This document shows, in pieces, positions 18,800 through 33,199 of a stretch of DNA of 64,000 nucleotides. Position numbers and translations under genes: made by a program. The stretch is from Acinetobacter suaedae. Its GTDB lineage: Bacteria; Pseudomonadota; Gammaproteobacteria; Pseudomonadales; Moraxellaceae. The notes below the pieces were generated by a model. It worked only from the letters and a program-made list of their open reading frames with translations. It did not search any database and had not been told where the DNA came from. Numbering within the stretch: position 1 is the first letter of the stretch; every line of letters starts with the position of its first letter. Location: assembly GCF_008630915.1 (NCBI RefSeq), contig NZ_CP043909.1:744001-808000 (forward strand), given 5' to 3'.

Positions 18800-20032
18800 T
18801 TATTTTGCAGGTTGAATATCAAACTCAAAGGTCCATGTCATTGTGCTGTTATAGTCCGTTGGATCTGCATAACGGATATCGGTGAGATGCATACGTGCAT
18901 AGCTGTTGCCTTTGTTACTACGGATCATACTTGCTCCAGTAGAGTCTGCTTTAAGCGTATGCATTGCTTGTAATCCATCTGCTTGAGCAGCCGCCAATGT
19001 TGGATAGTAGTTATACCATCCATACGATAGTTTTTGTGGATAAGCCCCTTGATATGCTGGGTTCAGGATAGAGTTAATGGTATTAGAACCCCAACGCGTT
19101 ATTTTTGTTGAAATCGATGCTTTAAGGTCTGCTTCGGTGCTTGCATAGGCATTGGTATCTTTGAATTTATCTAAGATGGCATTGCCTTCAGTGGTATAAA
19201 AACCTTCTGGCTGGGAAGCAACGGCACTGCCAATGTTTTGATTGACTTGTACATAGTAGCGATTAAATGCAAGTTGCCATTTTGCTTGAGTATCTTTGGT
19301 TGTGGTGCCGCTGACAAGGTCAACATAGTTCCAGCCTTTCGTGGCATCAACGGTTAAGGTTTTGACATCATTCGGATACTGGGTGTTGATATAACGGATT
19401 GAAATATATCCTGATGTGGTTCCTTGGTAGTAGTTATAGATTTGTACCGCAAATACAGGTTGATCTATGGTACCAATTACCTTGGTGGAAGCAGTATCGG
19501 TTGTCACTAAAAAGGTTTTAAAATTGGGTGACATGCGATGATCACCAAATAAGTTATATTCTAAGAAGCTATTATAACCATTTGTCGTCGCCATAAATGC
19601 ATTGCTGTAGGCATCTATATTCCACGCTTGACTTGGTAAACTGCCACCTTGGATTGCATCCAGCTCTTTTGAGAGTTGTTCCCATGTTGCAGAGAAGGGT
19701 GAATAGAGCGCACCACCATTACCCGATCCACTTACTCCACTGTTGGTGAATAACATTGGCGTACGTGTACCCATTGCAAATTGTAGATCCCAATCGGATG
19801 TTGTACATGAGACCTCCGCTTGTGTGTCAATGTCATAGCAATACGACGAATTTGCACTTGGTGTAATCGTCCATTGCGCTGATTTGATCGTAAATTGGTC
19901 GGTATTGTTTGAGCCGTTATTTGATGTATTGTTATTGCTACCACTTCCGCCACCACCACCGCATGCGATCAGTAAAGCGCTTAAGGTACTTAATGTAAAA
20001 AGTTTGCAGAAATGTGTGTTTAGATTAGACAT
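18800..20032 (-). CDS. HmuY-like haem-binding lipoprotein (predicted)
   Basis: A 410-residue lipoprotein with signal peptide and lipobox ALLIAC (Cys24), followed by a glycine/asparagine/serine-rich linker. The remainder resembles the HmuY family, in which surface lipoproteins bind haem and pass it to a TonB-dependent receptor: WTITPSANSSYCYDID, then DWDLQFAMGT, then repeated beta segments such as SGYISIRYIN and GWNYVDL. A Y-rich C-terminal stretch (YGWYNYYPT) precedes the end. It starts 14 bases downstream of the receptor gene with AAAGGATC before its ATG, so receptor and lipoprotein form an operon. The haem ligand is inferred from the family and neighbour. Confidence 0.75.
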   Translation of the reverse strand: MSNLNTHFCKLFTLSTLSALLIACGGGGGSGSNNNTSNNGSNNTDQFTIKSAQWTITPSANSSYCYDIDTQAEVSCTTSDWDLQFAMGTRTPMLFTNSGVSGSGNGGALYSPFSATWEQLSKELDAIQGGSLPSQAWNIDAYSNAFMATTNGYNSFLEYNLFGDHRMSPNFKTFLVTTDTASTKVIGTIDQPVFAVQIYNYYQGTTSGYISIRYINTQYPNDVKTLTVDATKGWNYVDLVSGTTTKDTQAKWQLAFNRYYVQVNQNIGSAVASQPEGFYTTEGNAILDKFKDTNAYASTEADLKASISTKITRWGSNTINSILNPAYQGAYPQKLSYGWYNYYPTLAAAQADGLQAMHTLKADSTGASMIRSNKGNSYARMHLTDIRYADPTDYNSTMTWTFEFDIQPAK

Positions 20033-20046
20033 ACTGTGTTGATCCT

Positions 20047-22077
20047 TTAAAAATTATTCCAGTGAAAACGCACACCCATGTAGCTATATCGGCCAGCAAC
20101 AGGCCGATAATCGACAGGGGCAGAGAAATCACGTTGTTCATTAAAAATGTTGTCGATGCCGACAAAAGTACTGATCATGGGGTTGATTTGATAATCAACT
20201 TGAGTGTCGATGCTGAACCAATCAGGAGAACGAAGTTTGTTGTTATCGGTGTATTCTTCACTTTGATAACGGGCACGTATGGTCAAATCAAGCTGATCAT
20301 TTAATGCAAAATCGCTACCTAGACGTGCGATATGCTTTGGTCGGCGTGTTAAGGACGTACCAAGGGTTTTGTCTTTTGCTTCGGTGTAGGTATAAGCACC
20401 GTTTAGTGACCAAAATGGGGTTATTTTCCATTTTGCTGAGCTTTCAATACCTTTGGTTTGAGCTTTTGCAACATTGCTATAGCTGTATTGAGTAATTCCG
20501 TTGTTGCTCGTTGCATTGTCATAGTCTGTTTGGATGAGGTCTTTAACATCATTCCAAAACAGGTTAATGTCAGCATTCCATACATCATTTTGAACAAGGC
20601 CAAGCCCGAGCTGGTAACTATCCGATGACTCTGGTTTTAAGTTGGGATTGCCAATCACTACATAACCTAAGTGACTGTGATCAAAAGAATAAAATCGTTC
20701 TTTTAAATTAGGTACACGATAGCCCTGACCGTAGCTAAAGCGCAGATCAACCAAAAGATTATTTTGCTCATAAGCACGATATTTGGTGCTGAGTTTAAAT
20801 GCATTGTGGTTGCCAAAATCATCATCATTTTGAAAGCGCCAGCCCAGTACTGCATCTAGATTTTTAAGTAGATTGAGGTCATTTTGTAGATAAAATTCAT
20901 GGCGATCTCGATGTACTTTGCCGCCTTGCATTTCAAATTTACCATTATTGTTTTGTTCTAGTTTTTCTTGGTGCCAATCATATCCCAATTGCCAGTTTTG
21001 CTTGTGCCAAGTAGGAAATGAAAGCTGTGAACTAAAATGGTTATTTTCTTGCTTTGAGTTACGTAGTGCAGATAGAAAACCATCTACAGTTTGAACTGAT
21101 GTCGTGTCATAGGTTTCATGGACAGCCTTTAAATCAAGTTTCCCTAAATCTAAGAGTTGTAGTTGTGAACCTGCACTAATGCGCTGGCGTTCAATGTCTT
21201 CAACTTTGTATTGTTTTAAGTTGAAAGGGGAGACAAAGAGGAAATCTTTTTGATGATCTTTTTCTTTATATTGATTGAAATCGGTCCATAACATGAACTG
21301 ATCACTTGGCTGCCAAGCACCATAAAGTGTGTATTGTTGACGTTTTTGTTCATCACCTTGCAATGGATAATCACTCGGTTTCACTGCAAAGCCATCACTG
21401 CTCAGTTGGTCTGCTAGCAAACGACCTTTCAATGTTGCGCTGGCTGCTTCAATGCTGACTTTTTGATGGTGGTTGTTGATTGATGCGGATTTTCCATTGG
21501 CATTTTGTTTACCATAAGAACCGATATCGATTTGTCCTGAAATAGATACGCCTTCTTGGACTTTTTTAGTGATGATGTTGATTACACCACCCATTGCTGA
21601 TGAACCATATTGTGCTGATGCGGCTCCTTTAATCACTTCAATATGATCAACACCCCCGATTAGATATTGGCTTAAATCAATGGTTGAGCTTGTGCTTGCT
21701 GCTAAGGGGAGTCCATCAATGAGTACCAGTACCTGATCGCTACTCAGACCTTGTAATGAAATTTCATAACCTGATTTACCATGGATTTCTCGTAATAAAA
21801 TTCCAGGAATATTTTTCAAAGCATCTTTTAGAGTCGTAGCATTGGTACGTTTTAACTCGTCTTGGTTGATGATTTCTGTCCGAATCGGACTATCCAGTAA
21901 GTGTTTTTCTGAACGTGTACCCGTAACCACAATGGTATCTAACACATGTGTAGATTGTTTCGATGGGAACGCTAAGTTCTGATCTGCATATACGTGGGCA
22001 GAAAAAAGTCCCGTTACAAGCAGTGAGACAAATAATGTGTTTGGCTGAAAACGGAATGGAAGAGATTGAATAGTCAC
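20047..22077 (-). CDS. TonB-dependent outer-membrane receptor (haem/siderophore type)
   Basis: A TonB-dependent receptor of about 676 residues. It shows a signal peptide (LFVSLLVTGLFSAHVYA), a TonB box (DTIVVTGTR), a plug domain (LKDALKNIPGILLRE, GLSSDQVLVLIDGLPL, IEVIKGAASAQYGSSAMGGVINIITKK) and a C-terminal barrel ending MGVRFHWNNF. It imports an iron complex, probably haem given the adjoining HmuY-like lipoprotein. The reading frame is open to 22173, but the Fur-like site lies inside that extension, so I prefer the GTG at 22077, which directly begins the signal peptide; no strong Shine-Dalgarno sequence marks it. Confidence 0.88.
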   Translation of the reverse strand: MTIQSLPFRFQPNTLFVSLLVTGLFSAHVYADQNLAFPSKQSTHVLDTIVVTGTRSEKHLLDSPIRTEIINQDELKRTNATTLKDALKNIPGILLREIHGKSGYEISLQGLSSDQVLVLIDGLPLAASTSSTIDLSQYLIGGVDHIEVIKGAASAQYGSSAMGGVINIITKKVQEGVSISGQIDIGSYGKQNANGKSASINNHHQKVSIEAASATLKGRLLADQLSSDGFAVKPSDYPLQGDEQKRQQYTLYGAWQPSDQFMLWTDFNQYKEKDHQKDFLFVSPFNLKQYKVEDIERQRISAGSQLQLLDLGKLDLKAVHETYDTTSVQTVDGFLSALRNSKQENNHFSSQLSFPTWHKQNWQLGYDWHQEKLEQNNNGKFEMQGGKVHRDRHEFYLQNDLNLLKNLDAVLGWRFQNDDDFGNHNAFKLSTKYRAYEQNNLLVDLRFSYGQGYRVPNLKERFYSFDHSHLGYVVIGNPNLKPESSDSYQLGLGLVQNDVWNADINLFWNDVKDLIQTDYDNATSNNGITQYSYSNVAKAQTKGIESSAKWKITPFWSLNGAYTYTEAKDKTLGTSLTRRPKHIARLGSDFALNDQLDLTIRARYQSEEYTDNNKLRSPDWFSIDTQVDYQINPMISTFVGIDNIFNEQRDFSAPVDYRPVAGRYSYMGVRFHWNNF

Positions 22078-22115
22078 AATGTAATCGCTAATGAAAATTA
22101 TTTCACAATGTAAAT

Positions 22116-22134
22116 AGTAATGATTCTCATAATA
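22116..22134. promoter_or_regulatory. Fur-box-like site between receptor and DUF6607-like genes
   Basis: AGTAATGATTCTCATAATA matches the classical 19-base Fur consensus at 13 of 19 positions. It lies 39 bases upstream of the receptor GTG and about 105 bases upstream of the divergent gene, so Fur could repress both under iron sufficiency. The match was scored by eye. Confidence 0.7.
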
Positions 22135-22239
22135 ATTTACAATACTTCGCATGTTTATTTCAAAAAGAAACAAACATGCACATAGTTGTCTAATTTTTAC
22201 TTAACTAAATCAGTATCTTAAATTGTATTGGAAGTTTTT

Positions 22240-23226
22240 ATGAAACTTAAGCTATCTTATGTTCTAGTCACGCTGTTGGCTTTTGGGGGAGTAAATGCAA
22301 ATGCTCAGCAACAACCAACGAAACTAGCAGAAGTATTACAGTATTCATCTTTGCATCAAAACTTAACCCAAGAACAAGCTCGTCAAGCGATTTTAAAAAT
22401 GGCTGGTGAGTATCGTGTTAATTTTCGCTTTGAAGAGCTATATGCATTAAAACAAGGCTATGAAATCAAAGATGATGATTTATCAAGTGGCTATGAAACG
22501 GTGATTGTGCTTGAAAACACCGCAAAAAAGGTTTCTCTACAGCATATTCTGGTTGCTGGGGGACATGTTGTTAAGCATTGGCGTCAAGATTGGGAATATG
22601 AGCCTAAACAAATGTGGAGTTACATTGGTGATTACAAATGGCAAAGTATCCCATTAAAGAAACAAGAAGTTAAAGGGATGTGGTTACAAACTGTTTGGCA
22701 AGTTGACGATTCTCCACGTTATGCTGGACTGGGTAAATGGAGCCAAAACAATGGTGCTGTCGAATGGGTTTCCAATGAGACCTACCGACCATTACCTCGT
22801 CGTGAACATACAACTCGTAGTGATTATGATGTGATTATTGGTGTGAATCGTCATGCTTTAACTGCAACGGGTTGGGTGCATGAACAAGATAATATTAAAT
22901 TTGATAGCAAAACCAAGACTGCGCTTGCACGTGAGCTAGGTGTGAATCAGTACAATAAAGTCGGGAGTTTTGATTTTAAACCTGCCTATGACTATTGGAA
23001 AGAAAATGCAGCTTATTGGAGCGCAGTAAGAGATGTATGGAATCAAGCATTCAATCAAAATAAAGTGGTTGCATTAAAATTTGCTCAAAAAGATGAAAAA
23101 TCTCATTTTAGCTATTTTAATGATGAGGCAGCCTCAGTTGCAGGTAAGGCTATTCAGGTTGAGCAATTACAGTCAAAAGCAAAAATATTACTTAATCAGC
23201 AACTTACCGAGGGTAAGATTAATTAA
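22240..23226 (+). CDS. DUF6607-like exported protein
   Basis: An exported protein of 328 residues with a Sec signal peptide (VLVTLLAFGGVNANAQ). The body is rich in tryptophan and charged residues (VVKHWRQDWEYEPKQMWSYIGDYKWQ), which matches my memory of the DUF6607 family of uncharacterised proteins, often found beside TonB receptors. The start ATG at 22240 has TTGGAAG upstream; the frame extends 12 bases further but without support. It is divergent from the TonB receptor across a Fur-like site, so an iron- or haem-linked periplasmic role is likely; the biochemical function is unknown. Confidence 0.72.
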   Translation: MKLKLSYVLVTLLAFGGVNANAQQQPTKLAEVLQYSSLHQNLTQEQARQAILKMAGEYRVNFRFEELYALKQGYEIKDDDLSSGYETVIVLENTAKKVSLQHILVAGGHVVKHWRQDWEYEPKQMWSYIGDYKWQSIPLKKQEVKGMWLQTVWQVDDSPRYAGLGKWSQNNGAVEWVSNETYRPLPRREHTTRSDYDVIIGVNRHALTATGWVHEQDNIKFDSKTKTALARELGVNQYNKVGSFDFKPAYDYWKENAAYWSAVRDVWNQAFNQNKVVALKFAQKDEKSHFSYFNDEAASVAGKAIQVEQLQSKAKILLNQQLTEGKIN

Positions 23227-23344: not shown

Positions 23345-24025
23345 ATGTCTTCAGGACAACAAGTTTTAATTAAACTCAGAAAAATGATCATTGCAGGGGA
23401 AATTGAAGGTGGTAGTCGAATTGCTGAGATTCCAACAGCAGAGTTGCTTGGTGTCTCAAGACAACCAATTCGAATGGCATTTCGTTTGCTTGAGCAAGAA
23501 GGTCTGTTAATAAAAAATCCAACCCGTGGTTATACGGTACGAGAGATTTCAGGAAAACTGATTCATGATGCGCTGGAAGTACGTGGTGTGCTTGAAGGGT
23601 TGGCAGCAAAAACGTTAGCGGAACAAGGGCTAACAGATCAGCAAAAGACCACCTTGCAGGCGTGTATTCAAGAAACAGAACAGCTTTTTAATGAGCATAC
23701 TGAGTTTAGTGATACTGAATTAGAGCGTTATCACCACTTTAATGTAATTTTTCACGATACGATTATTCAAGGGGCGCAAAATATAGCACTGTTACAAGCT
23801 TTGGCAAAAAACAATCAATTGCCTATGGCATCAGCGCAAGCAATTACCTATGACCAAACAAAAGCGTTATCGGAATATCGTCGATTACACTATGCACATC
23901 TTCAACATTGTTCAATTTATGACGCGTTATTACATCGCCAAGCCGGACGAGCTGAAACATTGATGCGTGAACATAGTAGTGTGGTGATATTAGGTGAAAC
24001 CTTGACAAATGTTCTAAGTGATTAA
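23345..24025 (+). CDS. vanR: GntR/FadR-type regulator VanR
   Basis: Transcriptional regulator of 226 residues: an N-terminal GntR winged helix-turn-helix (about residues 5-70, LLGVSRQPIRMAFRLLEQEGL) and a C-terminal FCD ligand domain with the metal/ligand histidines and acidic residues spread along RYHHFNVIFHDTI. It is convergent with vanBA, the usual partner arrangement of VanR, which represses vanillate genes and is released by vanillate. Four sequences with the core of the known VanR operator lie upstream of vanA, the sulfatase operon and vanK. No such site precedes vanR itself, so autoregulation is not evident. Confidence 0.85.
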   Translation: MSSGQQVLIKLRKMIIAGEIEGGSRIAEIPTAELLGVSRQPIRMAFRLLEQEGLLIKNPTRGYTVREISGKLIHDALEVRGVLEGLAAKTLAEQGLTDQQKTTLQACIQETEQLFNEHTEFSDTELERYHHFNVIFHDTIIQGAQNIALLQALAKNNQLPMASAQAITYDQTKALSEYRRLHYAHLQHCSIYDALLHRQAGRAETLMREHSSVVILGETLTNVLSD

Positions 24026-24073: not shown

Positions 24074-25024
24074 TTATAATTCAATGACGAGTTTTTCTGA
24101 TTTTGCACGAGAACAACAAGGTGTAAACTGGTTATTAAGTGCATGTTCTTCATCGGTCATAAATACATCACGATGGTCTGGTGTGCCTTCGATTACACGA
24201 GTAATACAAGTGCCACAGATGCCTTGCTCACAGGAAATTGGCACATCAAAACCATGTTCAATCAAAGCTTGGGTGGCAGTCTGGTGGGCTAACACCTTGA
24301 TTTGACGATCTGTCCCTTTAACTTCAATAGTAAAATCTTTATTGTTTGATGTGTCTGTGATTTGAGCAACAAAATGCTCTTGGTGTAGCTGTTCAGTTTG
24401 CCATCCAGCTTGTATTGCAGAGTTAGTCACAAACTCCATAAAACCTGTTGGACCACAGACATATAGGTGTTTGTCGGGTGTATTCTGATGGAGTGCCTGT
24501 GACATATCGCAACCGGTACCTGGTTGGTCTTGAATATGGAAATGAATATTTGACCCAAAATGTTCAGTTAAATTGCCGTAGAAAGCAATCATGTCATGGC
24601 TACGGACGAAGTAATGTAACTCGAATGGAATTCGTGCGGATTTAAGCCGATATGCCATGGATAAAATAGGTGTAATCCCAATGCCGCCTGCAAATAAAAT
24701 AGCTTGTTTCGTTTCAGGATGAATTTTAAATAAATTACGGGGTTCCCCGATTTGTAGAAGATCACCTTCATGGTATTCGGTATGGATACAGCGCGACCCG
24801 CCTCGTGAATTGGCGTCATGTAGTACACCAATGACATAACGATGTCGTTCACTGCAGCTATTTGAAATTGAGTATTGGCGAGTTAAGCCATTCTTAAGAT
24901 GCACGTCAATATGTGCACCTGCTTCAAAAGTAGGGAGCGTTGTATCATTCGCTGACACCAGTTCAAATGCACGAATTGAGGGAGTGAGTTGATGAATTTT
25001 ATGAATCATTACGTCCATGTTCAT
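24074..25024 (-). CDS. vanB: Vanillate O-demethylase reductase component
   Basis: The reductase of the two-component vanillate demethylase, 316 residues, which passes electrons from NAD(P)H to VanA. The N-terminal flavin-binding barrel has RQYSISN (about residue 49), the nucleotide-binding part has LFAGGIGITPILSMA, and the C-terminal plant-type [2Fe-2S] domain has CEQGICGTC plus a later FTPCCSRA cysteine. AAAGGAAG lies upstream of two in-frame ATGs (25024 and 25018); the second has better spacing. It follows vanA directly and is co-transcribed. Confidence 0.95.
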   Translation of the reverse strand: MNMDVMIHKIHQLTPSIRAFELVSANDTTLPTFEAGAHIDVHLKNGLTRQYSISNSCSERHRYVIGVLHDANSRGGSRCIHTEYHEGDLLQIGEPRNLFKIHPETKQAILFAGGIGITPILSMAYRLKSARIPFELHYFVRSHDMIAFYGNLTEHFGSNIHFHIQDQPGTGCDMSQALHQNTPDKHLYVCGPTGFMEFVTNSAIQAGWQTEQLHQEHFVAQITDTSNNKDFTIEVKGTDRQIKVLAHQTATQALIEHGFDVPISCEQGICGTCITRVIEGTPDHRDVFMTDEEHALNNQFTPCCSRAKSEKLVIEL

Positions 25025-25030
25025 CTTCCT

Positions 25031-26107
25031 TTAAATCACATGAATATTTGGAAACTTATGTTTAGATATTTCAGGAGGCGTTGTGCTTTCTTCAGTAAGT
25101 AGACGCTCAATGACTCTACGTGACTGAACTCCACCAGCATCGATGTTAAGCATCAATAACTTTCGGTGAGGATTGCTTAAAATATTTTGTTGTTGCTGTT
25201 CCAACATTTCTAAATCTTCAGTGAAAATTTTGCCTTGACCTTCACGAATTTGATCGGTGAGTGCGGCATTTTCTGGTTGGAAATTACGGGCCATTCCCCA
25301 GAAATACCAATGCGAGGTTTCAGTTTCTGGTGTAATGAAATCTACGACGATAGAGGACACTTTTTTATCTTTTGGTGCGTCATAGCCACCATATCCAGCA
25401 TGTGCCACACCGACTTCAATATGTACATTGCTTGGGGCGAAGAAATGACATCGTTGCCAACGATCTACAGGTACATCATCTGCCAAATTGTTGCCACGAA
25501 GTGCCATTTGCCAAAAAGGCGGTGCAATAACATTTTCCATATAACGCTCAGTAATGACGTGATCGCCATCTACTTTCGTTACAGGTAGGGCTTCATCAAT
25601 TTCTTTTTGACCAATACTACTTGAGTGAACATAGGTTTCATGGGTTAAATCCATGAGGTTATCGATCATTAGGCGGTAATCGCACTGAATATGAAATAAT
25701 CCTCCTCCATAACTCCACTCTGGATGCTCTGCCCATTCTAAAACAGGAAGTTTCGACTCTGAAGCTAAAGCCTTTTCTCCAGGCCAAACCCAAATGAACC
25801 CATACTTTTCTATCACCGCATAGGCTTTGTTACATGGGAAACCATGTGTGCGTTGTGCAGGCATAGACACTGTTTTTCCGTCACATCCCATCACTAAACC
25901 ATGGTAACCACATACGAGGTTTCCATCTTCAACATAACCTAATGACAGGGGGGCACCACGATGTGGGCAGAAATCTTCCACGGCAGCGACCTGATTTTCT
26001 TTGCCACGATAAAAAACGATCTTTTCACCACAAATTGTGCGACCAAGAGGCTTATCTTGAATTTCTTCTGGACGGCATGCGACATACCAAGCATTTTTAA
26101 TAAACAT
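25031..26107 (-). CDS. vanA: Vanillate O-demethylase oxygenase component
   Basis: The Rieske-type oxygenase of vanillate demethylase, 358 residues, converting vanillate to protocatechuate and formaldehyde. Rieske ligands are C47/H49 (CPHRG) and C66/H69 (CGYHG). The mononuclear iron site is in NLMDLTHETYVH. The start at 26107 follows AGGAG and gives the family N-terminus MFIKNAWYVACR; the in-frame extension to 26167 would overlap the operator. A perfect VanR-type operator at 26130-26141 lies 23 bases upstream. VanA in turn produces protocatechuate for the beta-ketoadipate pathway, not encoded here. Confidence 0.96.
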   Translation of the reverse strand: MFIKNAWYVACRPEEIQDKPLGRTICGEKIVFYRGKENQVAAVEDFCPHRGAPLSLGYVEDGNLVCGYHGLVMGCDGKTVSMPAQRTHGFPCNKAYAVIEKYGFIWVWPGEKALASESKLPVLEWAEHPEWSYGGGLFHIQCDYRLMIDNLMDLTHETYVHSSSIGQKEIDEALPVTKVDGDHVITERYMENVIAPPFWQMALRGNNLADDVPVDRWQRCHFFAPSNVHIEVGVAHAGYGGYDAPKDKKVSSIVVDFITPETETSHWYFWGMARNFQPENAALTDQIREGQGKIFTEDLEMLEQQQQNILSNPHRKLLMLNIDAGGVQSRRVIERLLTEESTTPPEISKHKFPNIHVI

Positions 26108-26129: not shown

Positions 26130-26141
26130 ATTGGATCCAAT
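26130..26141. promoter_or_regulatory. VanR-type operator at vanA (perfect)
   Basis: ATTGGATCCAAT, a perfect 12-base palindrome identical to the VanR operator known from Caulobacter vanAB, 23 bases upstream of the vanA start. Confidence 0.88.
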
Positions 26142-26277: not shown

Positions 26278-26289
26278 ATTGGATCCATA
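26278..26289. promoter_or_regulatory. VanR-type operator, second copy upstream of vanA
   Basis: ATTGGATCCATA keeps the TGGATCCA core. It sits 11 bases past the stop of the porin gene and about 170 bases upstream of vanA. The 12 bases TTGGATCCATAT here (26279-26290) recur exactly at 30361-30372. Confidence 0.75.
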
Positions 26290-26299
26290 TTGTGGTGTT

Positions 26300-27487
26300 T
26301 TAAAACTTTACCGTATAGTGAATCATCATTCTTTGCTCATCTAGGCTTTTGCCATGTTTTGTATCATAGTTGATGTTCAAGAATAGGAGTTTTAGGTTTT
26401 TAACCCAGTGATTTAAATCATATTGGATGAGTAAATCACTCTCTTGTTCGAAGTCATCTTTATTTTTCGTTTGAAATGAATCGCCATATATGTATTTGTA
26501 GGTAATCTTCAGTCCTTTGATATAGTCTTTAAAATCATAACTACTTACGAAGTGATAGGATTTTTCATTGGCTTTAGTAAATGCCCCTAATGTCCAGTTC
26601 ATCATGTGTGGAATGGGTAATCCATCGAGTTTAGGTACCCCATTTTTACCAAAGTTCTCTTGATAACCTATACCAGTAGTAAAGTTACCATGTTGTATAA
26701 AGTGCATTGCGCCTAAGGATGTGTTGTTATATTGACCTAATTTTGCATCTCCAATGTCGGTATGTTGAAACATGCGGAATTTTGTATTGTGTTGGTCTGA
26801 CCACTGGTAATCAAAGGCCAAGTAACTTTGATTAATGATATCGGTTAAATAGCCATTGTAGAATTTCCAACTATATTGTGGCTTTTTCCCATTCCATTCA
26901 AAAAAATACAAACCATCGGACTCTTGTTGCGAAATAGCCAGTTTCCTATAGTCCTCTTCATTTCGTGGTGAATACCGATTGATAAATCCGAGCGTGAAAT
27001 TTTGTTGTTGTTGATGATATTTAAATTCAGCACCTTTGTAATTAACTCTTAATTGGTGGGTGTCTACTTGTGGTGTTAGTGGTGTATTCGGGATGATTTC
27101 GCCAATATTGATGCGAAAGTCTTTGTACTCAACCCCCATGCCTAATCCATATTTGCTGTAGTGCTGGGCTTGTTGTTTTGTGTCTGCATCAAATGGTAAG
27201 GTAAAGTCATTTGAATGCTGATCGGAACTGAGTCGATAGGCGTATTGTAAGCTTGGCATAAGATGAAGTTGGACGTCATTCAATTTTACTGACCAGTCAC
27301 CACGATAAAGCAAGCCTTGGCTCAAGCTGTTTGAATTTGCACTTGGATCATCTTTGTAGTCGCGTTCAAAACTAAAGGTTTTAAAACTAAGCTCATTTTG
27401 AAAATTAAAAGTTTCGGTTGCGTATGCAGAACAGCAGGCAATAGTGATCCCTGGGATAAGCATCCCATAAGCTAATAAGTATTTCAT
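26300..27487 (-). CDS. OprD-family outer-membrane porin of the sulfatase operon
   Basis: A 395-residue OprD/VanP-type outer-membrane porin for small anionic (often aromatic) compounds. A signal peptide (to about AYATE) is followed by FNFQNELSFKTFSFERDYKDDPS, the same beginning as the neighbouring vanP product (AELTFRNFYFDRDYKKDP), and it ends with IHYTVKF. It starts only one base after the FGE-like gene's stop, with AAGGA before its ATG, so it is the third gene of the sulfatase operon. It probably admits the sulfated substrate to the periplasm and may stand in for the interrupted vanP gene; both statements are inference. Confidence 0.82.
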   Translation of the reverse strand: MKYLLAYGMLIPGITIACCSAYATETFNFQNELSFKTFSFERDYKDDPSANSNSLSQGLLYRGDWSVKLNDVQLHLMPSLQYAYRLSSDQHSNDFTLPFDADTKQQAQHYSKYGLGMGVEYKDFRINIGEIIPNTPLTPQVDTHQLRVNYKGAEFKYHQQQQNFTLGFINRYSPRNEEDYRKLAISQQESDGLYFFEWNGKKPQYSWKFYNGYLTDIINQSYLAFDYQWSDQHNTKFRMFQHTDIGDAKLGQYNNTSLGAMHFIQHGNFTTGIGYQENFGKNGVPKLDGLPIPHMMNWTLGAFTKANEKSYHFVSSYDFKDYIKGLKITYKYIYGDSFQTKNKDDFEQESDLLIQYDLNHWVKNLKLLFLNINYDTKHGKSLDEQRMMIHYTVKF

Positions 27488-27488
27488 G

Positions 27489-28451
27489 TTAATTCCTTTT
27501 TACGGTTCTAAATCCAACGTGACTCGTTGCTAAATCTAGCTCTTGAGGGTGTCTCGCAGCAGCGCGATAACGTGCGCAATAATTACTTGCACACAGATAA
27601 GAGCCTCCTTTGATGGTGTATTGCAAAATGCTGTTGGGGTCATGTCTATAAGTGGCTGGATCTCCCATATGATGGTCTCTTACTCCGGTATAAGGGGTTT
27701 GAGTCCATTCCCACACGTTTCCGATCATGTCATATAGACCAAAGGGGTTTGCCTTAAAACAGCCAACGGGGGCAACTTCATTGAAACCGTCTTGTTGGGT
27801 GTTTTGATAAGGAAACTCACCTTGCCAGTAGTTTGCAGTAGTATGTCCTTGATGGGTGGGGCCGATATCTGATTGTTGTTGAAATCCTTTGGCGGCATAT
27901 TCCCATTCAAGTTCTGTTGGTAGGTCGTGTCCTAACCAATGTGCATAAGCATAGGCATCATTCCATGTGATTAGGCGTACAGGCTCACTTGGAAGTGGGT
28001 GCTTGTTGCTATTTGCCCCCCATGGTTGCTTCCAATTGGCATCTGGCTTAAAAGCCCACCATTGCATTTCTGCTACAGGGGCGGTGGGCTGAATGAATAC
28101 GGCTGCACCACCTTGTTTTTCTGCATCTGTTATATATCCAGTTTGCTGTACAAATTCAGCAAACTGAGCATTTGTTACTTCAGTTGCATCAATCCAAAAT
28201 GATTTGACGGAGGTGAGTTCTTGTTTGAAAGGTTTTTCATCAGCATAACCCTCTGTTGTACCTAGTTGTATTTGACCTGCAGGTAGTTGAACCATGCCTG
28301 CAGTTTTGTCGTTTGACCAGTTAGGAGGCATGCCAGAATAATTTAAACATTTTGACGTGTCGCCTAGATTTAAAGTCATGTGTTTGTCAGGTGTATGCTT
28401 TTGACATCCAGATATGAATAGGAGTGGTAAGAGCATGATGATTGTCTTCAT
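27489..28451 (-). CDS. Formylglycine-generating enzyme, predicted lipoprotein
   Basis: SUMF1/FGE-like protein of 320 residues that would convert the sulfatase active-site cysteine to formylglycine using oxygen and copper. The FGE fold signatures include GNVWEWTQTPY, DLPTELEWEYAAKG and GGSYLCASNYCARYR; the latter carries C287 and C292, spaced like the catalytic pair of human FGE (C336/C341), so it should be active rather than a mere FGE-sulfatase-domain relative. It has a lipoprotein signal peptide with lipobox FISGC (Cys16), placing it in the periplasm. The ATG at 28451 has AGGAG 7 bases upstream. It follows the sulfatase by 10 bases. Confidence 0.88.
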   Translation of the reverse strand: MKTIIMLLPLLFISGCQKHTPDKHMTLNLGDTSKCLNYSGMPPNWSNDKTAGMVQLPAGQIQLGTTEGYADEKPFKQELTSVKSFWIDATEVTNAQFAEFVQQTGYITDAEKQGGAAVFIQPTAPVAEMQWWAFKPDANWKQPWGANSNKHPLPSEPVRLITWNDAYAYAHWLGHDLPTELEWEYAAKGFQQQSDIGPTHQGHTTANYWQGEFPYQNTQQDGFNEVAPVGCFKANPFGLYDMIGNVWEWTQTPYTGVRDHHMGDPATYRHDPNSILQYTIKGGSYLCASNYCARYRAAARHPQELDLATSHVGFRTVKRN

Positions 28452-28461
28452 CAGCAAACTC

Positions 28462-30138
28462 CTATTGTTTTATATATTGTTCGAAATCGACAACACCATT
28501 TTCATCGGCATATTTTAAGTACTTATCATTTAAAATTTTTACAATATCTGGGTGCTGGGTAAAAACATTATGCTGTTCATTAAAATCTTTTTTTAGGTTG
28601 TAGAGTTCCCAGCCTTGACTGTTAAATTTCGAAGGAGAGTTTTCTACGAGTTTCCATTCATCATTCTTTGCATAGCGACTGCCATGCAGTTCTTTGAAGT
28701 CGTAATAGTTTACTGGTCGGATACGTGCATTGTTGCTTTTCAAGGCTGGAATTAAGCTAAAGCCTGAAGGTTGGATTTTTTTGTTTGATGCTGGATAGAG
28801 GTGATCAGATTCAATATTTGCTAACTCCATTACGGTTGGAAAAATATCGCGAACAGTTGCAAAATGATTATTAATTCCTCGGTCTTTGGAGAGGTGTTGT
28901 GGATATTTGACTATGAATGGAACTCTAACACCACCCTCTGAAGCTGCTGATTTCCAATAGGTGAAAGGGGTGCTACTCACTTCTGACCAACGTGAACCCA
29001 TATATACATAGGAGGTGGCTTTGCCAATATTTTCGTAGCTATTGTCTGCTTCACCCATTGGGAAATTATGATTTCCTCCTTCGGCACCATTATCTGACAT
29101 GAAGATAATGAGTGTATTTTCATATTGATTATGCTTTTTTAAATACTGGATAACATCGCCAATACGATCGTCCAATTGGGTGATCATCCCTGCATACACT
29201 TCCATTTTTCGAGCTTCATATTTTCGCTCTTCTGGTGATAGTTCTGACCAGCTCTTGGTGTTGAGTGCTTGATTGCCTTGTTGTGTTGGGAGTTTTGTAT
29301 TAACAGGAATAAGTCCTAACTTTTTTTGCTTTTCGAAGCGTTGTTTCCGGATAGCATCGTAACCTTGGTCATATTTCCCTTTGTAGAGATTTAAATACGC
29401 ATCAGGTGCTTGAATTGGCCAGTGAGGTGCGGTGTATGCAAGGTATGCAAAGAAAGGTTTTTTTTGTTTGTTTTTATCGAGGTATTCAAAAGCTTTTTGA
29501 GTAAAGTAATCAGTAGAGAAGTAGCCGTCAGGCAATTCGGTCTTTTGACCATTCTCGGTATATTGAACTTTGCGTGGATAGTTTTTAGGTTGATCTTTGA
29601 AGTGTAAGTCGAATCCATCTAGTAGAACAAAGGAGTGATCAAAACCACGTGCATGAGGATTATGTTCTGGCGCATGACCTAAATGCCATTTACCCACCAT
29701 GAACGTATAATAATTTTTGTGCTTAAGAATCTCAGCTAGTGTGTAGGCATTTGGGGTTAAATGCCCAGAATAACCATCGACTTTAAGTAGCGCGCGCGGG
29801 CTATTTTCACCTACCCGTGCTGTTTGGCGTTTAGAGGTTTCATACATAGCGCCTAAACCCACGAGATGATTGTCAGCACCAGTCATGAGTTGTGCTCTAG
29901 TTGGTGAACACATTGATGAAGCGTGGAAATTAAAAAGCATTTTTCCTTGTTTTAGCAGGCTGTCAATGTTTGGTGTTTTGATTTCACTACCGTAAGCACC
30001 AATATCTGAAAAACCTAAATCATCTGCCAAAATGATCATGATATTCGGTGTTTGAGTCGTTTTAGCATGAGCTATTGGAAGGGTGTGTCCAAGAAGGGTG
30101 ATCCCCAGTGTTAAGTGGGCTAATTGTTTTAGCTTCAT
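28462..30138 (-). CDS. Secreted type I arylsulfatase
   Basis: A 558-residue sulfatase with a Sec signal peptide (LTLGITLLGHTLPIAHA). It contains the type I sulfatase signature CSPTR (Cys77, the residue oxidised to formylglycine), metal ligands in ILADDLGFSDIG, the motif GKWHLG and a late SDNGAEGG. The body closely resembles Pseudomonas AtsA arylsulfatase (for example AYTAPHWPIQAP and MEVYAGMI), but AtsA as I recall it has no signal peptide, whereas this one is exported. It hydrolyses sulfate esters, most likely of phenols. The start at 30138 has AAAGGA upstream. First gene of a VanR-type-operator-preceded operon. Confidence 0.92.
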   Translation of the reverse strand: MKLKQLAHLTLGITLLGHTLPIAHAKTTQTPNIMIILADDLGFSDIGAYGSEIKTPNIDSLLKQGKMLFNFHASSMCSPTRAQLMTGADNHLVGLGAMYETSKRQTARVGENSPRALLKVDGYSGHLTPNAYTLAEILKHKNYYTFMVGKWHLGHAPEHNPHARGFDHSFVLLDGFDLHFKDQPKNYPRKVQYTENGQKTELPDGYFSTDYFTQKAFEYLDKNKQKKPFFAYLAYTAPHWPIQAPDAYLNLYKGKYDQGYDAIRKQRFEKQKKLGLIPVNTKLPTQQGNQALNTKSWSELSPEERKYEARKMEVYAGMITQLDDRIGDVIQYLKKHNQYENTLIIFMSDNGAEGGNHNFPMGEADNSYENIGKATSYVYMGSRWSEVSSTPFTYWKSAASEGGVRVPFIVKYPQHLSKDRGINNHFATVRDIFPTVMELANIESDHLYPASNKKIQPSGFSLIPALKSNNARIRPVNYYDFKELHGSRYAKNDEWKLVENSPSKFNSQGWELYNLKKDFNEQHNVFTQHPDIVKILNDKYLKYADENGVVDFEQYIKQ

Positions 30139-30232
30139 ATTGCAATCCTTTGGTGTGGTTGGTGCATCTTGCACTCAAAAAGCTATCTTTGTTTAAAAAA
30201 TAGGCTTGCTAAAAGCATAATTTATTTTTTTA

Positions 30233-30244
30233 AATGGATCCATA
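30233..30244. promoter_or_regulatory. VanR-type operator before the sulfatase operon
   Basis: AATGGATCCATA with a palindromic core ATGGATCCAT, 95 bases upstream of the sulfatase start. Confidence 0.72.
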
Positions 30245-30359
30245 TTTAATTTTAATAATTTTAATGTTTTTTTTATATTGGTGATTTTTATATTTAATTT
30301 TATAAAATACATATATTTAATTTTATATCCTTAAATTGTTTGTTAAAAACCATTGATTT

Positions 30360-30371
30360 TTTGGATCCATA
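30360..30371. promoter_or_regulatory. VanR-type operator before vanK
   Basis: TTTGGATCCATA with the TGGATCCA core, about 165 bases upstream of vanK. TTGGATCCATAT is identical to the copy at 26279-26290. Confidence 0.72.
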
Positions 30372-30536
30372 TATTCACTATAAAAAAAGCAGGATGCTTA
30401 GCAAAACGTATCGACAGCATACGGTTTGTGAAATCAAACAATGTTAATAAATTTTTGGATAGGGATATGCATGATCAGCCATCGCACGCTTTTGCGTTGA
30501 TGTATGTGTATTTTATCCAGTGTTGGAGATATACAC

Positions 30537-31886
30537 ATGAACCGAGATGTTCTAAGTGAAATAAACCAAAATAAGATGAGCCGTTATCAATGGTTCGTGA
30601 TTTCAATTTGTATTTGTCTAAATATTATCGATGGTTTTGATGTCATGGTCATGGCATTTACGGCGCCCTCAGTGTCTATGGAGTGGTCTTTGTCGGGGGC
30701 ACAAATCGGAATGCTATTGAGTGCAGGCCTGTTTGGAATGGCTGCTGGTTCAATATTTTTAGCGCCTTTTGCAGACAAAGTGGGGCGTCGTTTATTGATC
30801 TTATCTTGCTTAGTTATTTCTGGTCTAAGTATGTTGGCTTGCGCATTTGTAGACAATCACAATACCTTAGCATTACTTCGTTTTATCACGGGTATTGGTG
30901 TCGGTGGAATTTTGGCAAGTAGTAATGTTTTAGCAAGTGAGTATGCGAATGGGCGATGGAGAAGTCTTGCAGTGAGTTTAATGTCTACTGGTTATGGAAT
31001 CGGTGCGACGTTAGGAGGTGTATTATCACTGGCTTTGATTGAACAGTTAGGATGGCGTTCAATTTTCTTGGCAGGTGGGATTGCTACAATCATGATGCTA
31101 TTTGTGAGCATCTGGTTGCTGCCAGAATCACTGGATTATTTGTTGGCAAAAAGACCGAAACAAGCACTCAAGCAAATTAATATGACGATGCAGAGAATAG
31201 GCGGAAGTACTCTGTCTGCTTTACCACACCAAATAAAAACCAGTACTGCGGGAAATAAAGGGGAATTAGTAAAGCTATTTGACGGTCATCTTCGCTTCCA
31301 AACACTTTGCCTTTGGTTTGCTTTTTTCCTAGTAATGTTTGGTTTTTATTTTGTGATGAGCTGGACACCTAAAATTTTACTTTCAATGGGAATGTCTGCT
31401 GATCAGGGTGTGACGACTGGGATTCTGATTAGTATCGGTGGGATTTTTGGAGCCGCAATTATTGGATTACTTGCATCACGTATCAAAATTTTCTATGCAT
31501 TAAGCCTCTTTTTGGGACTAACGGCAGTTTGTGTATTTTTATTTGTTGCGGTTTCAGCGCATGTAAGTGTGGCTCTGGTTGTCGGTTTACTACTAGGAAC
31601 GCTTATTAATGGTTGTGTAGCAGGCTTATATTCAATTTCCCCTACGATTTATGAGGCTGACATTCGTAGTCGTGGAGTCGGGTATGCGATTGGTTTTGGG
31701 CGTATTGGTGCGATTCTATCACCAACGGTTGCAGGCATATTTCTTGATAAGGGCATTGCTCCAGCCACGCTCTATGCTTATTACGGGGTGGTATTTATTT
31801 TCGCAATATTTTTGATTCTGAGTTTGGGTAGTGCTTTTTATCGGAACAAAAAAGAGCAAAATTACTCATTTGAAACAGCACCTTAA
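30537..31886 (+). CDS. vanK: Aromatic acid:H+ symporter (VanK-type MFS)
   Basis: A 12-helix MFS transporter of 449 residues of the aromatic acid/H+ symporter family. The characteristic DGFDVMVMAF in helix 1 and the loop motif GPxADKxGRR (here APFADKVGRR) are visible, as is RWRSLAVSLMSTGYGIG. It imports vanillate or protocatechuate-like acids across the inner membrane; Acinetobacter baylyi VanK is the closest family member by position. The ATG at 30537 follows GGAG; the frame also opens 33 bases earlier without support. It heads a vanK-vanP operon. Confidence 0.87.
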   Translation: MNRDVLSEINQNKMSRYQWFVISICICLNIIDGFDVMVMAFTAPSVSMEWSLSGAQIGMLLSAGLFGMAAGSIFLAPFADKVGRRLLILSCLVISGLSMLACAFVDNHNTLALLRFITGIGVGGILASSNVLASEYANGRWRSLAVSLMSTGYGIGATLGGVLSLALIEQLGWRSIFLAGGIATIMMLFVSIWLLPESLDYLLAKRPKQALKQINMTMQRIGGSTLSALPHQIKTSTAGNKGELVKLFDGHLRFQTLCLWFAFFLVMFGFYFVMSWTPKILLSMGMSADQGVTTGILISIGGIFGAAIIGLLASRIKIFYALSLFLGLTAVCVFLFVAVSAHVSVALVVGLLLGTLINGCVAGLYSISPTIYEADIRSRGVGYAIGFGRIGAILSPTVAGIFLDKGIAPATLYAYYGVVFIFAIFLILSLGSAFYRNKKEQNYSFETAP

Positions 31887-31918: not shown

Positions 31919-33199
31919 ATGAAAAAGACACCATGGTGGGTGGGGGTATGTTTGTGCCCGTTATTTAGTCAGGTTGTGCATGCAGAGTTCATTGAAGACA
32001 GTCAAGCTGAGCTGACATTTCGAAATTTTTACTTTGATCGGGATTATAAGAAGGATCCATATCCATATACAGCCGCGAGAGATTGGGCACAAGGTTTAAT
32101 TTTTAAAGGACAGTCAGGCTATACAGAGGGAGTCGTTGGATTCGGCGTCGATGTGTTGGCAATGACAGGCTTTAATTTGATGGGCAATCGTGCAGATGAT
32201 TATGCGCGTAGCGGTTTATTGAAAGTCAATGCAGATAATTCTCGTGATGACTATTATGGAAAAATTGGGGTTACTGGAAAGGCTAAGTTTAGAAAAAATG
32301 AGCTTTTTGTGGGAGACCTTGTTCCACAATTGCCAACCATATTTTCATCGCCAGCACGTTTATTCCCATAGACTTATCGTGGTATTCGCTTTGTTTCAAA
32401 TGAAATCCCAAATCTTCAATTAGAAGGGTTTTATGTGGATGAAGTGCGACAACGCGATTCGATTCGCTATACAGATGTTGGTACAGATAATATAAACCAT
32501 CGTTTTGATAAAGCGGCAACGACTGAGCATTTCTATAGCTTTGGGGGGAGTTACCAATTCAAAGATTACCGTTTACGTGCTTATCATGCTGAACTTAAAG
32601 ACATTTACCAACAACAATTTTTGGGCTTTAACGGAAAACAGGCTTTAAACGAACAACTTAATTTTCTAAGTGATGTACGTTTTTTTAATAGTACTGAAAC
32701 TGGAAGCAAAGAAATTGGAGAGGTTGATAACCACCATATTAGCGGTTTATTTGGTTTGAACTATAAAAACCATACAGTTTCTTTGGGATATATGCAGTCG
32801 TTTGGTTCAACTGGATTACCTTTTTTGTCAGGAACTGAAAGTCCTGTTGTGCTTGATTTTATGAGTTCGGATTATTCAAACAAGGATGAAAAAGTTTATT
32901 CAGTTCGTTATGAGTATGATTTTAAAGATGCACAATTAGGTGATCTGCCGTTAAATGGGCTTCGCTTTATGACACGATATGCGAAAGGCGAGGATATTGA
33001 TTTGCTCCAATATGGAAAGCAGCGTTTTAAAGAAGAATCAATTGAAGTCGATTTAGGATATAAAATCCCTGAAGGAAAATTACAGGGGTTAGGTATGAGG
33101 GCGCGTTTTTCCCACTATCGTAATGATATGCCAACGCATATGACGTTCCACTCGACGAATGAAATGCGCTTCAATGTTGATTATAGTTTTAAATTCTGA
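31919..33199 (+). pseudogene. vanP: vanP-type porin gene interrupted by an amber codon
   Basis: A 427-codon frame encoding an OprD-family porin beginning MKKTPWWVGVCLCPLFSQVVHA (signal peptide) and ending FNVDYSFKF, split by an in-frame TAG at 32369-32371. Before the stop the protein reads ..SSPARLFP, after it ..TYRGIRFVSNEIPNL; an OprD-like PQTYRG would need CAG, so a single C-to-T change probably made the amber codon. Both halves keep the reading frame and good barrel sequence, which points to a very recent loss, a readthrough case, or a sequencing error. AGGA precedes the start. Downstream of vanK, the usual position of vanP. Confidence 0.82.

Follow-up and report, generated by a model that had tools for sequence, protein, structure and literature searches.

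Comparison with described systems

The vanillate (van) locus analysed here lies in a 64,000-nucleotide stretch of DNA, hereafter the window (G000:C1:744001-808000), from an Acinetobacter genome that is a single contig of 3.37 Mb, and it holds an operon for a sulfatase, a formylglycine-generating enzyme (FGE) and an OprD-family porin. The closest described counterpart is the van locus of A. baylyi ADP1, where we take the gene order to be vanAB, vanK and vanP, with VanR. The two loci have vanAB, vanK, an OprD porin gene and a GntR-type VanR in common, whereas the window has an extra, divergent unit between vanA and vanK, the sulfatase/FGE/second-porin operon, with a predicted operator on its promoter side. 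VanR of ADP1 is described as a repressor of vanAB, with vanillate and apparently also syringate as inducers (PMC12481942). The nearest solved relative of the window VanR by sequence is Atu1419 of Agrobacterium (6z74; 6.5e-34), placed by its authors in the VanR group of the FCD-GntR regulators (PMC7797058). Atu1419 binds paired palindromes, and its tetramer can loop DNA between two of them 190 bp apart, which fits the paired sites at the van locus; it differs, however, in its palindrome, ATGTATACAT, and in its proposed effector, methylene-tetrahydrofolate (PMC7797058).

The nearest solved structure to the sulfatase by sequence is PAS of P. aeruginosa (1hdh), with which it has the CxPxR motif and the aligned active-site residues in common, while differing from PAS in its Sec-type signal and its pairing with an exported FGE. 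Similarly, the FGE has the domain family and two active-site cysteines of SUMF1-family enzymes (6muj, 2q17), but is a lipoprotein encoded in one operon with its presumed client and an outer-membrane channel. In a 2013 review, Cys-type sulfatases are given as typically cytosolic, and an FGE of A. calcoaceticus appears in its alignment, without locus context there (PMC3920027). An earlier note on this DNA, which proposed the link between the operon and VanR, knew of no description of a sulfatase, FGE and porin under this regulator. None was found in the open-access literature, nor any paper there bringing together vanillate, a sulfatase and Acinetobacter, subscription journals lying mostly outside both searches. 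New beyond the earlier note are a VanR-type promoter before a tannase, a sulfatase-FGE pair within a vanAB cluster of another family (G264), and exported sulfatases in mhp/hca- and pca-type clusters.

A predicted module for sulfated phenolic acids

We consider it likely that the operon is a VanR-repressed catabolic module for sulfated phenolic acids, feeding VanAB and the protocatechuate pathway, with vanillate sulfate as the leading substrate candidate. This reading is favoured because four exact operator cores lie in the two gaps flanking the operon and four recur in every operon-bearing relative (13/13), because core and VanR gene co-occur across the order, and because the sulfatase active-site residues and FGE cysteines are kept and ratios of nonsynonymous to synonymous substitution (dN/dS) are low. 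It is further favoured by the sulfatase-FGE pair beside vanAB and pobA in G264, by related sulfatases in mhp/hca- and pca-type clusters, by a VanR-type promoter before an exported tannase, by a gene for protocatechuate 3,4-dioxygenase beta, by the repression of vanAB by VanR in ADP1, with vanillate as inducer (PMC12481942), and by the abundance of vanillic acid sulfate among urinary phenolics (PMC9220091).

In the proposed pathway, the OprD porin would let the sulfated acid across the outer membrane, the FGE lipoprotein would oxidise the active-site cysteine of the sulfatase to formylglycine, and the sulfatase would remove the sulfate in the periplasm. VanK would then import the freed vanillate, or a like methoxy-phenolic acid, VanAB would demethylate vanillate to protocatechuate, and protocatechuate 3,4-dioxygenase and the beta-ketoadipate pathway would consume it. 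Relief of VanR by vanillate or a product of its metabolism would tie production of the sulfatase to an active carbon pathway instead of, or in addition to, sulfur shortage. Both vanAB and protocatechuate 3,4-dioxygenase, as the route demands at this step, are encoded in the window's genome, the beta subunit of the latter matching TIGR02422 over its cut-off at C1:1293436 with a weaker second match adjoining.

The sulfatase, FGE and porin

The coordinates confirm the gene order and strands of the earlier note: vanA and vanK flank the genes for the sulfatase, the FGE and the OprD porin. The three genes are tightly packed (gaps of 10 and 1 bases), with ribosome-binding sites recognised by eye. The Cys-type sulfatase (28462..30138, minus strand; PF00884, 1.1e-57) has the motif CSPTR and, by eye, a Sec-type signal peptide; AAAGGA precedes its ATG at 30138, and the mechanical open reading frame begins at 30174. 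Residues 41-563 align with PAS as the best match in the PDB (3.4e-117), and the aspartates, formylglycine cysteine, arginine, lysines, histidines and Asp-Asn that we take to form the active site of PAS all match. Among the curated NCBIfam models for choline-sulfatase, PehA and arylsulfatases, all five listed scored far under their cut-offs, and no second match to the sulfatase was found in its own genome at E<=0.001.

The FGE (27489..28451, minus strand; PF03781, 3.9e-67) matches the structures 6muj and 2q17 with both active-site cysteines kept, and has a lipobox ISGC and the motif GGSYLC....C.RYR. Thirty Acinetobacter FGEs (the window, its 13 van-linked relatives and 16 others) were compared, and all 30 have a lipoprotein-like N-terminus by eye. 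A strict lipobox pattern missed 14 of them, including 12 of the 13 van-linked relatives, whose boxes read LCAC or similar. The pattern GGS[YF][LMI]C....C.RYR was present in 27 of the 30, including the window and all 13 van-linked relatives. Two weaker FGE-like genes lie elsewhere in the window's genome. The porin (26300..27487, minus strand; PF03573, 1.5e-38) belongs to the OprD family; its best PDB match is BenP (5dl8, 7.5e-55), and the solved vanillate porins VanP (5dl6, 1.3e-22) and OpdK (3.3e-12) are not its closest relatives. The proteins look functional and exported.

VanR-type operators

The exact core TGGATCCA occurs four times around the operon, at the positions given in the earlier note: as a perfect palindrome in the vanA promoter (26130..26141, ATTGGATCCAAT), as a second site on the vanA side (26278..26289, ATTGGATCCATA), on the promoter side of the sulfatase (30233..30244, AATGGATCCATA) and in the vanK promoter (30360..30371, TTTGGATCCATA). 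The position of the second site thus stands; its placement needs correcting to just beyond the porin stop, approximately 170 bases upstream of vanA. A core is found there in 13/13 operon-bearing relatives, in which the other three sites are likewise kept. A looser 12-mer with up to three mismatches was rejected as a search pattern: 63 matches in the window compared with a mean of 54.5 in shuffled sequence show no enrichment, and the operator signal therefore rests on the exact core.

Genome-wide, the exact core occurs at 27 places, against 18 for a reversed control, and with two A/T bases on each side at eight places against two. Four of these eight fall within the 557 bases of the two gaps flanking the operon (binomial 5e-14, or 1e-11 when calculated from all 27). 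The A/T-flanked cores and a pair at a tannase gene were inspected individually; three other A/T-flanked cores lie, by eye, inside pyrG, mutL and rnhB and were treated as chance occurrences.

Across genomes, the core was found upstream of vanA in all 53 Acinetobacter vanA loci, each with a VanR homologue in the fetched stretch. Within 400 bases upstream of vanA, these 53 loci have 6.46 cores per kb and 26 loci from other genera have 5.19; elsewhere in the fetched stretches the densities are 0.041 and 0.019 per kb, respectively. Of the loci from other genera, 23 have a VanR-type GntR gene, and in 22 of these (the exception being L212) the core lies upstream of vanA; the three loci lacking such a gene have none there (Fisher p=0.0015). 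This comparison supports the prediction of the earlier note that the cores behave as VanR operators. Pairs of cores 52-54 bases apart also recur upstream of vanA outside the genus (L185, L193-L215; 17 pairs in 25 loci), a spacing of about five helical turns that may suit a dimer of dimers. No overall helical phasing of core pairs was seen, the resultant being 0.06 for the distinct genus spacings and 0.32 for the others.

The putative regulator is encoded on the plus strand (23345..24025; PF00392 and PF07729; best PDB match 6z74), followed on the minus strand by vanB, the vanillate demethylase reductase (24074..25024; Fer2 and NAD-binding domains), and the adjoining vanA, the oxygenase (25031..26107; VanA_C at 8.9e-54 and a Rieske domain; the ATG at 26107 was used as start). 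A search of the gap between the operon porin and vanA found no terminator-like hairpin, so read-through is possible and transcription may run from the operon into vanAB. Beyond the operon, vanK, an aromatic acid:H+ symporter of the major facilitator superfamily (30504..31886, plus strand; TIGR00895 at 4e-108, under its curated cut-off), precedes a second OprD-family porin gene in the vanP position (31919..33199, plus strand). The latter has an in-frame TAG at 32370, where the orthologues of G034 and G035 have no stop; both of its pieces match OprD, the second being closest to the porin 5dl7, and the operon's own porin may replace this interrupted one. On the other side of the locus, beside vanR (18800-23226), lie genes for a lipoprotein (by eye), a TonB receptor and a DUF6607 protein, a set that recurs in G033 (L112).

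Distribution, loss and selection within Acinetobacter

The genus was sampled with 175 Acinetobacter genomes, one per species. A sulfatase match at E<=0.001 was found in 92 of these and a close match (>=75%) in 15, while vanA was found at E<=1e-100 in 53. The operon lies between vanA and vanK in 14 of the 15 close-sulfatase genomes (window included), or 14 of the 53 with vanA. A search of named records with the window sulfatase returned nine loci, all from Acinetobacter: two from A. pittii, one each from A. nosocomialis, A. calcoaceticus, A. lactucae, A. halotolerans (labelled so; 93%) and a strain labelled A. haemolyticus (92%), the last two being the nearest, and two from unnamed species. These are the same genomes as nine of the 13 relatives and add no further evidence. 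Two copies stand out: the operon porin of L070 is split into two overlapping pieces, and L069 and L070 each have one stop codon within the matched sulfatase stretch; since open frames of 576 and 573 residues, respectively, are reported, these stops may fall in the 12 residues before the real start.

Parts of the operon also remain in genomes without it. In L116 (G045) parts of all three genes are left, the sulfatase only by its first bases, while L124 (G030) retains the 3' end of the porin and L129 (G007) a 58-base stretch resembling that end. These remnants in three operon-less genomes argue that the operon has long resided in the vanA-vanK gap and has been lost from it repeatedly. A comparison with other Acinetobacter van loci, as the earlier note had suggested, thus agrees with it in the four cores of all 13 relatives and disagrees on one point: its word "inserted" is misleading, and a recent or strain-specific insertion is rejected, with 14 of 53 vanA genomes carrying the operon at the same place and three more keeping remnants. 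The four cores are also kept in the vanK-vanA gap of 17 of the 23 operon-less loci analysed (23 of 39); where no remnants accompany them, this could alternatively mean that the operators preceded the operon.

Between L068 and L069, synonymous distances are 0.29-0.51 in the operon compared with 0.82-1.74 in vanA, vanB, vanK and VanR, and the porin gene that follows vanK is likewise close in its second piece (0.43); between the window and L069 they are 1.02 for the sulfatase and 0.37 for vanK. These values hint at exchange, the limits of the exchanged stretch being blurred by the close porin piece. Low dN/dS was found for every gene compared, at 0.034-0.114 for the sulfatase (8/10 pairs), 0.058-0.118 for the FGE (9/10) and 0.049-0.155 for the operon porin (8/10), with saturated synonymous distances in the remaining pairs. 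Such ratios indicate that the operon is under purifying selection.

Sulfatases in other aromatic clusters

In a sample of 293 genomes of the order, the sulfatase was found at E<=1e-120 in 10 and vanA at E<=1e-100 in 27 (window included in both), and three of the nine non-Acinetobacter sulfatase genomes have vanA at E<=1e-60. In one of these, G264, from another family, sulfatase and vanA are 2.2 kb apart, a closeness with a chance of approximately 0.004 in any of the three genomes. The genes in this stretch include pobA, which passes the TIGR02360 cut-off, together with vanA (72% identical) and vanB (45%). They are joined by an FGE and a sulfatase whose N-termini both resemble those of lipoproteins, by a class III extradiol dioxygenase beta subunit that passes the NF009903 cut-off (the model for protocatechuate 4,5-dioxygenase ranks next, under its own cut-off) and, by eye, by likely ring-cleavage follow-up enzymes; the whole looks like a deconjugation-plus-catabolism island. 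The G264 sulfatase is about 40% identical to that of the window and lies across a 100/97 tree split from it (with long branches); being on a different branch, its linkage to vanAB probably arose separately. A GH3-like glycosidase lipoprotein is encoded in the same stretch (L183, 877-18956).

Within the genus, 20 further sulfatase loci (42-50% identical) were chosen by us from the list of matches. Four (L048-L051; 49-50% identical) hold exported sulfatases among mhp/hca-type genes, identified by HcaE in L048 and L050 and MhpB in L049 (all over cut-off) and, in L051, by eye from its likeness to L050; in three of the four the sulfatase is accompanied by an FGE and by one or two OprD porins, neither of which is present in the stretch of L049. 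A fifth, L064 (G083; 43%), has sulfatase, FGE and OprD porin followed by pcaIJF (3-oxoacid CoA-transferase A and B and 3-oxoadipyl-CoA thiolase, all over cut-off), and on the other side an intradiol-dioxygenase-like gene, under its cut-off. None of the 20 loci has more than one core. Apart from these, the sulfatase of G076 (L081) is 75% identical and nested in the van-type clade, near genes for 3-(3-hydroxyphenyl)propionate hydroxylase, acetaldehyde dehydrogenase and hydroxyoxovalerate aldolase (over cut-off) and 2-keto-4-pentenoate hydratase (just under), in a stretch with neither FGE nor operon porin.

Other sulfatase neighbourhoods are of different kinds. Five of the nine non-genus loci (L186, L187, L188, L190, L192) show no aromatic-catabolic gene by eye, and a Rieske-like protein near the L191 sulfatase matches no NCBIfam model at E<=1e-30. 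In L184, L186, L189, L190 and L191 the sulfatase is near a gene with CxxCH close to the protein start, resembling multihaem cytochromes by eye. A glutathione-dependent formaldehyde dehydrogenase (TIGR02818, over cut-off) is encoded in the sulfatase stretches of L061 (4924-6036) and L190 (11172-12317); formaldehyde is a by-product of the O-demethylation of methoxy-aromatics.

A second VanR-type promoter in the same genome

A pair of cores, spaced 115 bases apart, precedes a gene for an exported tannase/feruloyl-esterase-like lipoprotein (L181:5271-7004, in region L181 5044-7004, from G000:C1:1139043 onwards; PF07519, 2.5e-82 on the part scanned). Core pairs with a gap of 95-125 bases were found in 31 of the 175 genus genomes and never with the reversed control; in 29 of the 31 such a pair is at the van locus (the exceptions being G071 and G170), and only the window's genome has a van pair plus another elsewhere, where 0.005 chance pairs are expected. 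When the tannase promoter, around its gene-side core, was aligned with the vanK promoter, operator included, none of 2000 shuffles reached the score (a strong result), while downstream of the operator 86 of 2000 did (weak), and between the sites no homology was seen (261 of 2000). A common operator context is clear from these alignments; common descent of the whole promoter is not. No other genome of the genus sample has the tannase at E<=1e-60, and an acquired esterase therefore seems to have been brought under VanR.

Weighing the explanations

Several results weigh against a vanillate-linked module. The intact operon is missing from 39 of the 53 genus vanA loci, so that most vanillate users do without it, and among 26 vanA loci from other genera only that of G264 has a sulfatase in the fetched stretch, in a cluster with neither a VanR gene nor a core. 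Moreover, 15 of the 20 further sulfatase loci lie outside recognisable aromatic clusters, nine of them near TonB receptors, and G076 demonstrates that a close relative of the sulfatase need not serve vanillate and that linkage does not single out vanillate sulfate. Induction, VanR binding and activity of the sulfatase on its substrate are, furthermore, predictions. To judge from the neighbours of the G076 copy, the sulfatase may act on phenolic-acid sulfates in general and be linked to any aromatic pathway that a cell has, with vanillate as a regulatory cue only and hydroxybenzoate, ferulate and hydroxyphenylpropionate sulfates as the main substrates. The four mhp/hca-type loci and L064 point the same way, as does the name arylsulfatase borne by PAS, its nearest solved relative. 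However, stable linkage in 14 genomes, together with the four operators there, speaks for vanillate-type substrates being the most important ones in this clade, and we regard a general hydrolase of this kind as unlikely.

Bacterial PAS-type arylsulfatases usually serve sulfur supply, and the operon could likewise encode a sulfur scavenger whose VanR control is incidental. This is highly improbable given the VanR-type operators, the catabolic neighbours, the operon's own porin and the lack of any sulfur-assimilation protein among the ten neighbouring proteins scanned. Less probable still is a passenger operon that sits in the vanA-vanK gap outside VanR control, with the four cores serving vanA and vanK only. 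The frequent retention of all four cores in operon-less loci does show cores to be independent of the operon, and G033 keeps two; against this reading, the operon encodes no regulator of its own, and the core at 30233 lies approximately 95 bases upstream of the sulfatase start with a counterpart in each of the 13 relatives. The VanR-repressed module for sulfated phenolic acids thus remains the favoured explanation.

Implications

Vanillic acid sulfate and 3,4-dihydroxyphenylpropionic acid sulfate are listed among the most abundant urinary phenolic metabolites (PMC9220091), and, loosely speaking, the van and mhp/hca genes found beside exported sulfatases handle acids of these kinds. A broader interpretation, which we put forward tentatively and hold to be possible rather than probable, is that VanR in these Acinetobacter may be a master switch for the extracytoplasmic unwrapping of conjugated phenolics, with two enzymes supplying VanAB: the sulfatase, acting on sulfate esters, and, in this genome, a probably acquired tannase/feruloyl esterase, acting on carboxylic esters. 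On a wider view, a cassette of exported sulfatase, FGE and porin might be plugged into van, mhp/hca and pca pathways, so that bacteria on people, animals or plants could use host-made phenolic sulfates as carbon.

If the favoured explanation is true, the operon would be a genetic system through which bacteria draw carbon from phenolic sulfates, and an example of a sulfatase coupled to carbon control. It would also mean that an aerobic formylglycine system operates in the periplasm, in contrast to the usual division given in the 2013 review (PMC3920027). For this Acinetobacter, the module suggests that sulfate may be stripped from phenolic acids such as those abundant in human urine and the freed acid then consumed.

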